Source of the DNA: Halorubellus sp. JP-L1
Lineage (GTDB): Archaea; Halobacteriota; Halobacteria; Halobacteriales; Natrialbaceae
Assembly (NCBI RefSeq): GCF_011440375.1
Contig: NZ_JAAOIR010000001.1
Coordinates: forward strand, 1,240,001-1,304,000
Direction: 5' to 3'
Length of the DNA stretch: 64,000 nt
Below, in pieces: positions 32,356 through 59,480 of this stretch (the first letter of the stretch is position 1; every line of letters starts with the position of its first letter). The translations under genes and the position numbers were made by a program. The notes beneath the pieces were generated by a model that did not search any database, was not told the DNA's origin, and saw only the letters and a program-made list of their open reading frames with translations.

Positions 32356-33201
32356 TTACCTCGTTAGGGTGAGGCAGGCGAGAGTTGCGAACATCGCCTC
32401 TTCGGTTCGCACCACCTCGCTGCCCTGATTCGGAATCGAGTTCACCCAGAGGTCGAACCCGGGTCGGTTTCCGGATTCGACTGCGTCGGTACCCACGGCG
32501 TCGGCGTCGACGCCGAGGATCGGCGGCAGCCCTCTCTCGGGCGCTCCGAAGACGACGGTCGTTCCGTCCGTCTGAATGCGCCCGGCGAGCGTGTCCAGCC
32601 TGGACACGGAGAGCTCCTCTCCGTGTCGCGAGGCGGCGATCGTCACGCCCGCGTCCTCACGGCCGAGTGCTGCCGAGATGGTCGATTGCGAGACGTCGAG
32701 CCCCGGAAGGGGGTCGTCGACGAGTCGCGCACGAACCGGTCTTCTCGAAGAGACCCTGACGGTGACGCGCTCTCCCTCAGCCACCTCCATCGCCGGAGGG
32801 ACGTTGAGGGAGATCGGGTGTTGCAGTCCGCAATTGACCCGGACGCGCCCTTCAGGTCCGACCTCGGTCACGATTCCCTGTCTTAACGACCCCGAACCGT
32901 TTGATTCGGAGCCGGTCTGTGACGTGGCGAGTAGCGGCGGCAGGACGCCCGCGTACTCCAGTTCGGGCCGCTTGCCCCAGGCCTCCTTTCGGAGGTAGGG
33001 GGGCGTTGCGGCGTATTCGAGTACGGTGCGTACGAACCCGCCGCCCCGTTTCCGTTCGCCGTCTTCGTCGGGGAAGACGACGAGTCGGTCGGCCCGGAAG
33101 ACGGTCGCCGCGCGGGCGACGTAACCGAGTTTGCGAGTTGCCTCGCGTTTGTCCTCGGCTTCCCGGGTGAGGGACGACGGCACGAGCACGCTGGTGGTCA
33201 T
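32356..33201 (-). CDS. SPOUT-class RNA methyltransferase (COG2106, putative uridine-N3 methyltransferase)
   Basis: A 281-residue protein leading the S10 operon. STRKLGYVARAATVFRADR-type residues at the start (KREATRKLGYVARAATVFRA) and TPPYLRKEAWGKRPELEYAG place it in the family related to human C9orf114/SPOUT1. An OB-like insert (TEVGPEGRVRVNCGLQHPIS) divides the Rossmann part, and the C-terminal knot region includes TVVFGAPERGLPPILG. It probably methylates rRNA; its place before rpl3 is conserved in archaea. Confidence 0.85.
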   Translation of the reverse strand: MTTSVLVPSSLTREAEDKREATRKLGYVARAATVFRADRLVVFPDEDGERKRGGGFVRTVLEYAATPPYLRKEAWGKRPELEYAGVLPPLLATSQTGSESNGSGSLRQGIVTEVGPEGRVRVNCGLQHPISLNVPPAMEVAEGERVTVRVSSRRPVRARLVDDPLPGLDVSQSTISAALGREDAGVTIAASRHGEELSVSRLDTLAGRIQTDGTTVVFGAPERGLPPILGVDADAVGTDAVESGNRPGFDLWVNSIPNQGSEVVRTEEAMFATLACLTLTR

Positions 33202-33700: not shown

Positions 33701-33771
33701 GCGCAGATAGTGTAGTGGTATCACGTGACCTTGCCATGGTCACAACCTGGGTTCAAATCCCAGTCTGCGCA
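33701..33771 (+). tRNA. tRNA-Gly (anticodon GCC)
   Basis: A 71-base cloverleaf: acceptor GCGCAGA/TCTGCGC, D-arm GTGT/ATCAC, anticodon stem TGACC/GGTCA around TTGCCAT (GCC at 33733-33735), T-arm CTGGG/CCCAG around TTCAAAT, discriminator A, no encoded CCA. Its last 22 bases reappear exactly at 33905-33926. Confidence 0.96.
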
Positions 33772-34105
33772 CTTCTCTCGACGACAACGCCGACGAGCAC
33801 CGCGTAGCGGTGCGAGTCACGCACGTCGTCGAGGAAGTCGGAATCTGGATTTGAATCCTACCAGTCGCGCGCAGTGAACGAAGTGAACGAGCAAGTCTGG
33901 TTTCGGTTCAAATCCCAGTCTGCGCATTTTCGCACCTTCAACGATAACGAGCGTAGCGAGTCGTCGGAGATGTCGAAATCCGGAAGCTAAAATTTGAGTG
34001 GGGGCACGCAGCCGGGCGAGGCGAGGACCGTGCGACCGAGTTCAAGTCCCGGTCTGGGTCTCGACGGACATCGCCGACGAGCATCGCGTAGCGGTGCGAG
34101 TCAGG
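33771..34105 (+). repeat. Tandem T-arm copies and hairpins downstream of tRNA-Gly
   Basis: In order: a long hairpin with arms 33771-33785 and 33825-33838; a degenerate T-arm copy with stem CTGG/CCAG (33845-33864); an exact copy of the tRNA's last 22 bases (33905-33926); a second, weaker hairpin with the GAGCGTAGCGA core; a third T-arm-like copy (about 34036-34054); and a second copy of the hairpin loop (about 34058-34101) closely matching 33777-33819. The array ends at the copper protein's stop codon. tRNA-Ile has the same layout. Confidence 0.75.
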
Positions 34106-35138
34106 CGCTGGTCGTCGTTCCGGTCTCGGTGCCTTCGTCATCGTCGCCGTCGTCGCCCTCGCCTTCACCGCCGCCGTCGCCCTCGCCGCCGTCCTCGCCT
34201 TCACCGCCGCCGTCGCCGGACTGGTTCGCCTCGAGGTCGGACCACGAGACGGTGCCTTCTTCGACGATGGCTTCGGGCTCGAGCGCGGGGTCGGTGAGCG
34301 TGACTCGCGCGAGTCCGACGGGGCCGGCTCTCGGTTCGGGGAGTGCTTCGGGGTCGCTGGTCTCGAACTCGGCGCTGGTCTCGTCGCCGACGACGATCCG
34401 CATCGCCATCCCGAACGCCTCGTGGGGCGAGCAGATGATGTCGTAGACGCCGGGCGTGTCGAACGACAGCAGCCACGTGTCCGGTGTGGGGCCGGCCTGC
34501 TCGTCGGCGGTCGCTGCGCCGGTGGTCGCGGTGGCGTCTTCGGCCATCGTCGCGTTCGCGTCGGTCGTCGTGGCGTTCGCGGTAGTCGTCGTGGCGTTCG
34601 CGTTAGTCGTCGTGGCGTCCTCGGTCGCGGTCGTCGTCTCGTCCATCTCGGTCGCGGTGGTGGCGTTCGTCGGTTCGCCCTCGCCGCCGTCACCGCCGCC
34701 CTCCGCGACGGGCGGCGCTGGTGGTTCGATCATGTCACCGGGGATCGTGTCGGGATCGAACCCGAGGAGCGGCGAGGAGAACGCTTCGACGCCGGTCGGG
34801 ACGCGCCGACGCATGCCGAACGCGGGATGCATGCCGACGACGTTGTGGTCCGGCGTCGTGAACCGCCATCGGACGACGTCTCCCGGCTGGACGTGGAGGC
34901 CGGTGGGTTCGTAGAAGAAGTCCGCTGGGCGGTCTGGATTCGTCGATGGGACGCTGATGAGCGTCTGGACGTCGTGGACGGCCTCGGTGTGCTCGTCGAT
35001 GCCGGCGACTGCGTCGCCTTCGTCGCCAGCGCCGAGCGTCGCCCACCCGAGCGCGCCGGCGGCCGTCCCGGCGCCGAGTGCTTTCATGACGGTGCGTCGT
35101 GCGGTACCGAACCGGTCTGTCGGATTGTCTTGGGACAT
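34101..35138 (-). CDS. Exported cupredoxin (plastocyanin/halocyanin-like copper protein)
   Basis: A 345-residue protein with a twin-arginine signal (RRTVMKALGAG, residues 14-24). The type-1 copper fold is split: GDVVRWRFTTPDHNVVGMHP carries the first His ligand, and VYDIICSPHEAFGMAMRI carries Cys, His and Met. Between them lies an insertion of about 85 residues, almost entirely Thr, Asn, Ala, Asp and Gly with repeated NAT sequons, so the loop is probably glycosylated. The C-terminal 45 residues are Gly/Glu/Asp repeats. It likely carries electrons outside the membrane. Confidence 0.88.
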   Translation of the reverse strand: MSQDNPTDRFGTARRTVMKALGAGTAAGALGWATLGAGDEGDAVAGIDEHTEAVHDVQTLISVPSTNPDRPADFFYEPTGLHVQPGDVVRWRFTTPDHNVVGMHPAFGMRRRVPTGVEAFSSPLLGFDPDTIPGDMIEPPAPPVAEGGGDGGEGEPTNATTATEMDETTTATEDATTTNANATTTTANATTTDANATMAEDATATTGAATADEQAGPTPDTWLLSFDTPGVYDIICSPHEAFGMAMRIVVGDETSAEFETSDPEALPEPRAGPVGLARVTLTDPALEPEAIVEEGTVSWSDLEANQSGDGGGEGEDGGEGDGGGEGEGDDGDDDEGTETGTTTSA

Positions 35139-59169: not shown

Positions 59170-59243
59170 GGGCGGATAGCTCAATTAGGTTGAGCGCCAC
59201 TCTGATAAGGTGGAGGTTCTCGGTTCAAATCCGAGTCTGCCCA
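59170..59243 (+). tRNA. tRNA-Ile (anticodon GAT)
   Basis: A 74-base cloverleaf: acceptor GGGCGGA/TCTGCCC, D-arm GCTC/GAGC, anticodon stem CCACT/GGTGG around CTGATAA (GAT at 59204-59206), variable AGGTT, T-arm CTCGG/CCGAG around TTCAAAT, discriminator A. Its last 24 bases plus the next two are copied exactly at 59364-59389. Confidence 0.96.
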
Positions 59244-59480
59244 CTTCTCCAGCGAACAACGACGTCGAGCGCAGCGAGGCGTCCGTTCGCTGGAGAAGTG
59301 CAATCTCGATTTGAATCCTGTGAGTCGCAGCCCGCGCAGCGGAGCGAGCAGGAACGTCTCACATCGGTTCAAATCCGAGTCTGCCCACTCCTCTGCTGCC
59401 ACAAACGAGGAGCGTAGCGACGAGTGCGGCAGCGGAGAAGTGTAGTATCTGTTCGAGTCTCGTGAGTCGTAGCGCCGAGG
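59243..59480 (+). repeat. Tandem T-arm copies and hairpins downstream of tRNA-Ile
   Basis: In order: a perfect 15-bp hairpin, ACTTCTCCAGCGAAC (59243-59257) with its inverse (59285-59299); a degenerate T-arm with stem CTC/GAG (59305-59324); an exact 26-base copy of the tRNA 3' end (59364-59389); a second hairpin with arms 59387-59403 and 59425-59441 (14 of 17 paired); and another degenerate T-arm copy (59449-59469). Hairpin loops carry GAGCG(C/T)AGCGA. The spacing from tRNA T-arm to exact copy is 144 bases, against 155 at tRNA-Gly. Confidence 0.78.

Follow-up and report, generated by a model that had tools for sequence, protein, structure and literature searches.

The window analysed here, i.e. 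the whole stretch of 64,000 nt from Halorubellus sp. JP-L1 (assembly GCF_011440375.1, contig NZ_JAAOIR010000001.1, forward-strand positions 1,240,001-1,304,000), contains a tRNA-Gly(gcc) gene on the forward strand at 33701-33772 (33701-33771 in Rfam), and behind it, on the same strand, lies an array of repeats that ends at 34106. The repeated block, which we call T, is the tail of the tRNA gene itself (33751-33771), running from one G of the T-stem through the T-loop to the discriminator. The first 155 nt of the array (33773-33927) form a unit of four modules, A, T', B1 and T, which is present here and absent from the comparison genome, a congener designated G001 (the genome of the window is G000). 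Repeat comparison and folding place the first A hairpin, with its long arms and the core GACGAGCACCGCGTAGCGGTGCGAGTC, at 33773-33846. The original prediction had put a hairpin directly after the tRNA, and the sequence at 33773-33836 does fold well, at -36.8 kcal/mol (z -3.75 relative to shuffles). It had also described a degenerate T-arm; that sequence is present at 33845-33864 but is rather an inverted copy, 92% complementary to the T-arm, within which inverted-repeat comparison delimits T', the inverted degenerate copy of the T-loop region, to 33847-33858. The B1 module follows at 33859-33904, with the core ACCAGTCGCGCGC...GCAAGTCTGGT and a match at 33846-33916 to R1, one of two models, R1 (B1-type) and R2 (B2-type), that we built from 42 units of two genomes, the window's genome included. 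The second copy of T (33905-33929) then agrees with the tRNA tail at 24 of 25 nt, at an offset of 155; this is the 22-base copy of the tRNA 3' end that the original prediction had described at that distance.

The second hairpin that had been proposed is recognisable at 33927-33985 by alignment to G001, but its arms have decayed here (z +0.31, i.e. no better folded than shuffles), whereas those of the G001 version are intact. The T'-B2 segment that follows (33989-34051; R2 match, E 9e-4) is likewise decayed in the window and intact in G001. Repeat comparison then finds the third T-arm-like copy, a weaker and degenerate copy of T matching at 16/25 (34039-34063), and the array closes at 34064-34106 with a distal copy of the core of the first A hairpin (93% over 40 nt, 34067-34106), as had been predicted. 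At gathering score, Rfam identifies tRNA within the array and no other family.

The array abuts a convergent ORF on the reverse strand (34101-35138), the end of which overlaps the last array hairpin by 6 nt; judged by eye, its product is secreted-looking and cupredoxin-like, with acidic repeats. On the other side of the tRNA gene, Rfam reports an L4-Archaeoglobi leader on the reverse strand at 32756-32855 (76.6 bits, E 4e-14), inside a long ORF (32356-33201). This match stands two genes upstream of an L4-like ORF and not directly before it (gene names assigned by eye). The window also holds a second array-bearing gene, tRNA-Ile(gat), on the forward strand at 59170-59244; its array of A, T', B1 and T (59245-59388, forward strand) has an R1 match at 59306-59377 and a T copy that is exact over 24 nt (59365-59388).

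Occurrence in the genome and across Halobacteria

We took a census of tRNA genes with Rfam (43 in this genome and 44 in G001) and counted copies of each tRNA's own tail, defined by at least 18 of 24 identical positions and a distance of at most 400 nt from the gene. Own-tail copies lie downstream of 18/43 tRNA genes here and of 19/44 in the congener, and upstream of 0/43 and 0/44 respectively. Tails of foreign tRNAs are found in the same flanks in only 9 of 1572 comparisons here and 15 of 1656 in G001, pairs of tRNAs with similar tails being excluded, and this excess of own over foreign tails indicates that each array copies its own tRNA. BLAST finds the T'-B-T stretch many times in this genome and in the congener, with a tRNA gene called by ARAGORN in 26 of the 27 loci fetched. 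R1 and R2 together mark 31 distinct sites in this genome, 30 of them 32-339 nt behind a tRNA gene on the same strand. The remaining site lies 28,755 nt behind tRNA-Arg(tcg), past an integrase-like ORF (a weak Phage_integrase match of 21.1 bits, below the cut-off of 27.1) and a copy of the last ~14 nt of that tRNA; an integrated element of ~28.7 kb has likely pushed this array away from its tRNA (G000:C1:18677-18751; L276, G000:C1:46800-48300).

R1 matches were found in 376 of 391 sampled genomes and in 83 of the 86 genera of the class, per-genome copy numbers in this survey being lower bounds because scoring stopped at 12 candidates for each genome; a tRNA gene was present at 30/30 of the R1 loci fetched and an own-tail copy at 29/30. 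In a sample of the phylum, R2 matched 76/81 genomes of the class and 2/311 outside it, both of the latter with E near 1e-3. The few genomes without a match to either model include G015. A search of 84,980 species genomes for the B2 pattern returned at least 120 stretches, of which we examined 80 (L146-L225), along with L144 and L145. The titles of 76 of the 80 are haloarchaeal and the other four are euryarchaeal or archaeal MAG contigs (L149, L195, L212, L221); species of Haloferax are among them (L209, L222, L224). Among the loci listed, 80 of 86 B2 matches lie 35-386 nt (median 55) behind a tRNA gene on the same strand, and 64 of these 80 reach 75% or more in ungapped tail identity to that tRNA. 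The other six matches, at five loci, involve tRNA tails next to contig edges or tRNAs missed by ARAGORN (L205, L213, L219); at L183 and L206 other sequence lies between the tRNA and the match. In Haloferax marinum (L222, 6654-6806) two tRNA-Gly(gcc) genes stand 9 nt apart before the array.

The tRNA-Gly(gcc) array of the window is one case of a genome-wide and class-wide feature, and the regular succession of a hairpin, an inverted T-arm and an exact one that had been noticed here recurs at other tRNA genes. The original prediction would have been abandoned as a chance remnant had other haloarchaeal tRNA genes lacked a similar arrangement; they have it. It had also held that one attachment-site duplication does not suffice, and we agree: a single duplication is ruled out by the genome-wide recurrence and by the B cores common to many loci.

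One reading of this near-universal presence (R1 in 376/391 genomes) is that the units, being prone to form cruciforms, serve the host as a boundary controlling transcription, replication forks or recombination, and are kept by selection. The array of tRNA-Leu(caa), kept across several genera with compensatory changes in its arms, and the upkeep of the palindromes at the DNA level (see below) would fit such a role, but more than half of the tRNA genes carry no own-tail copy at the threshold of 18/24, and orthologs vary freely in the presence, number and type of their units. We consider a benefit of this kind unlikely.

Unit anatomy and the level at which the palindromes are kept

The arrays follow the repeating plan T–A–T'–B–T, with A-T'-B-T as the unit. 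T is the last ~21 nt of the adjacent tRNA (positions ~53-73), from the edge of the T-loop to the mature 3' end; in A, a hairpin, the arms are specific to the locus; T' is a degenerate inverted T; and B belongs to a small set of conserved imperfect hairpins. In the B1 alignment invariant boxes, AGTCGC and GTCT, flank a variable tip, and in the B2 alignment, the sequences of which were chosen by hand because the automatic parser yielded 0, the boxes CAGGGAGC and GYGACCGTGG are nearly invariant. The limits of the duplicated block are sharp: among 171 first copies, its 5' limit lies 1 nt before GTTC in 131 and its 3' limit 0-2 nt from the end of the tRNA in 145. The T copies inspected are without a following CCA, so a mature tRNA is not indicated as the template. 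Tails are spaced by a median of 97 nt over 296 parsed units, the units contain no ORF, and 87 of the 296 match neither the B1 nor the B2 expression. The units have a fixed orientation relative to the tRNA (B1, 77 sense and 5 antisense; B2, 134 and 1), as counted over 288 flanks that are enriched in arrays by construction. There is in addition a third type of unit, with its own hairpin core, that repeats the acceptor half of the tRNA only; it was seen at Arg-ccg in G000 and at Gly-ccc and Ala-ggc in G001 (L046, L075, L080, L278).

A block that reaches from the edge of the T-loop to the end of the tRNA is the trace expected of an integrase that uses the T-loop, i.e. the repeat is the tRNA segment from crossover loop to 3' end, as in an attachment site, and elements bearing integrases also use tRNA ends in these genomes. 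Viruses, plasmids or other integrative elements might thus have left the arrays as an accretion of attachment-site relics. As far as the available text of PMC9897764 and PMC8371274 goes, partial tRNA genes left by integrative elements flank elements of kilobases; they resemble the present arrays in being copies of a tRNA 3' end behind a tRNA gene, and on that same text differ from them in that here units of ~100-155 nt with common cores stand behind many tRNAs. No mobile element with the same site and flanks came to light: the B1 and B2 patterns occur in 0 IMG/VR contigs and 0 phages, and only two plasmid records, both megaplasmids, matched, each with its unit at a tRNA gene. The same B core also occurs at unrelated tRNAs, and in L276 and L183 the adjoining element repeats the acceptor end only and leaves the array outside. 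Together these observations make relics of this sort very unlikely. In Halobellus inordinatus (L183, 6730-7749, reverse strand) a tyrosine integrase ORF (PF00589, 31.9 bits) adjoins the repeat of the tRNA-Arg acceptor end and the array.

The T'/T and B1 outer stem covaries, with 91.5% of cells paired and 48 double changes against 17.0 in shuffles (0/500 shuffles reaching this value), and T' tracks the local T (covarying pairs 5-69 and 7-67). Covarying arms, together with units that sit on the tRNA strand and all point the same way, would also be expected of a structured RNA, either a trailer or a small RNA, produced by read-through from the tRNA, as the original prediction had suggested. Selection at the RNA level should, however, make G-U far commoner than A-C on the tRNA strand. 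In our control, the acceptor stems of 229 distinct tRNAs, GT indeed outnumbers AC by 48 to 3 among 1582 pairs (~16:1). The arms of 163 distinct A hairpins give 11 GT and 8 AC at 1082 isolated outer-arm positions, i.e. about 1:1, and the B tips 1 and 4 of 313. Isolated outer-arm mismatches were counted because fixed mismatches inside conserved motifs had blurred the first counts; with these motifs included A-C exceeds G-T by 60 to 16 (29 to 10 in the outer halves). In T'/T alone, mismatches that sense RNA tolerates are slightly commoner (69/1581 versus 68/2246), a weak excess in favour of RNA. Judged by these pair counts, the palindromes are strictly Watson-Crick and look to be preserved at the DNA level and not for a sense RNA, since they lack the G·U preference of the tRNA stems. 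The pairs are not kept via G-U intermediates on the transcribed strand as those of a structured non-coding RNA would be, and no Rfam family except tRNA was found at gathering score; a read-through RNA is therefore disfavoured, and we regard it as highly improbable.

Dynamics of the arrays

Two or more copies are chained in 68 arrays; the first resembles the tRNA more than the second does in 35 of these, as much in 26 and less in 7, and T'/T pairing falls from 10.1 in first units to 9.4 in later ones (p 0.003). A hairpins are of undiminished quality in later units (7.6 versus 8.0); T and T' thus decay with distance and A does not, and we discarded A-hairpin quality as a mark of unit age.

The Gly(gcc) array of G001 aligns to the window from 33928 on and into the neighbouring gene, so that exactly one unit of 155 nt (33773-33927) differs between the two. 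The intact tRNA-proximal unit of G001 corresponds to the second, decayed one in the window, and this decay of the displaced unit favours a gain here over a loss in G001. More generally, orthologous arrays differ freely in which units they have, how many and of what type, the Leu(caa) array with its common plan in several genera notwithstanding. In 23 of 32 comparable units B has its closer match at a different tRNA locus within the genome and not in its ortholog; the 47 B entries of this comparison contain overlapping duplicates for Leu(caa) and one misparsed unit (Arg-tct). Identical B cores are shared by Val(gac) and Ile(gat) here and by Val(cac) and Ser(cga) in G001; T and T' remain specific to the locus while B recurs at unrelated tRNA loci.

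Behind a tRNA-Lys gene (L277, 474-1200) stand four identical units of 111 nt in tandem, which is a recent unequal amplification. On a plasmid of Haloarcula halophila (L145, 1427-1570), a 69-nt insert composed of A, T' and B1 splits, at G53|T54, a tRNA-Cys(gca) gene within a cluster of 19 ARAGORN tRNA calls; ARAGORN calls tRNA-Cys when the insert is removed and nothing when it is present.

Much of this could arise as a neutral by-product of DNA metabolism, i.e. from fold-back template switching at tRNA ends combined with unequal recombination and gene conversion between the multiple chromosome copies, which would make the palindromes and homogenise them, and without a dedicated enzyme. Such a process is consistent with strict Watson-Crick palindromes that show no strand preference, with the perfect tandem in L277 and with the one-unit congener difference, which a crossover at T could explain. 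Its weakness is the conservation of the B1 and B2 boxes across the class, which needs a sequence-specific constraint, as does the fixed orientation (77/5 and 134/1). Although this is the main rival to the explanation that we prefer, we think it fairly unlikely.

Candidate recombination cassettes and known systems

Our preferred explanation, to which we give an even chance, is that the units are DNA-level recombination cassettes which exchange at the edge of the T-loop, B being read as a folded or palindromic site by a putative factor conserved in the class. Units would be gained, lost and exchanged by recombination with a breakpoint at the 5' edge of the T-loop, and B, with its conserved boxes, fixed mismatches and variable tip, would be the recognition site, comparable to an integron attC; its reader would probably be a sequence-specific recombinase or a hairpin-binding factor. 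Each exchange would swap the tRNA's own tail for a T copy, so that only units with a working tail would survive, and we infer that such selection on the tRNA would keep T exact while T' drifts. Homogeneous tandem arrays would grow by unequal recombination. Cassettes of this kind are suggested by the own-tail bias, the sharp block ends, the class distribution, the position of nearly all B sites behind tRNA genes, the covariation, the lack of a wobble signature, the polarity of the arrays, the congener unit difference, the recurrence of B and the insert in tRNA-Cys. The suggestion in the original prediction of repeated integration by small elements comes close to this, except that the units are free of genes and that neither viral contigs nor phages contain their cores.

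Several observations count against cassettes. We saw no autonomous parent element and no recombinase tied to the units, and 87 of the 296 parsed units fall outside B1 and B2. The persistence of the Leu(caa) array across genera looks more like a maintained host feature, and many of the exchanges could come about, with no dedicated enzyme, through homologous gene conversion in cells that are polyploid. The slight lean towards sense RNA in the T'/T mismatches and the undiminished quality of A hairpins in later units also fit poorly. We nevertheless find plain attachment-site relics and a structured trailer RNA less likely than recombination cassettes.

Integron attC sites are imperfect hairpins in which conserved boxes and fixed mismatches accompany a variable tip. 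The resemblance of the B modules to them is one of anatomy only (imperfect hairpin, conserved boxes, mismatches, variable tip, tandem arrays and fixed orientation); unlike integron cassettes, the units are without an ORF, are anchored to a tRNA gene and repeat that tRNA's own tail, and no IntI gene was noticed near them. In E. coli, 178-bp repeats (rtT RNA) stand in tandem behind the tRNA gene at tyrT, each with the last ~19 nt of the tRNA; they are known from one locus of one bacterium. They are probably the nearest analogue, but are not known to have A and B modules common to many tRNAs. REP/BIME elements are dispersed imperfect palindromes, often clustered, and differ from the present arrays, which are anchored to tRNA genes and have flanks that adapt to the locus. 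Nor do the units resemble MITEs or other transposon-derived repeats, having no fixed, target-independent terminal inverted repeats and a T' that follows the local T. The PATEs, IS605-type ends and small mobile repeats of Haloquadratum, transposon-related elements in the account of PMC3119063, are also short, non-coding and palindromic repeats of a haloarchaeon; on that account they differ from the repeats here, which are tied to tRNA tails. PMC9668308, on integrons in Archaea, has neither 'Halobacteriota' nor 'haloarchaea' anywhere in its text. We found no earlier description of tRNA-tail arrays in the open-licence PMC literature that we searched, most subscription journals lying outside its scope. 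On the basis of this search the arrays look new, and would be less so if the tyrT repeats of E. coli share their mechanism.

Taken with exchange at the T-loop as one joint reading, the arrays would constitute a family of non-coding, palindromic DNA cassettes that is anchored to tRNA genes and spans the class Halobacteria, a reading for and against which we see the case as evenly balanced. More tentatively, and at less than even chances, nearly every haloarchaeon may possess a chromosomal system that stores non-coding hairpin cassettes behind tRNA genes and exchanges them between loci at the T-loop, thereby renewing the tRNA 3' end; it would be integron-like, with a tRNA gene as the anchor. Almost every genome sampled from this archaeal class, Haloferax included, has the feature, which matches no Rfam family beyond tRNA. 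The 'partial tRNA genes' of haloarchaea would then often not be viral relics, the evolution of tRNA 3' ends would be tied to an unexplained process at the DNA level, and haloarchaeal genetics would gain a clear target in the factor that reads the B hairpin and the T-loop.
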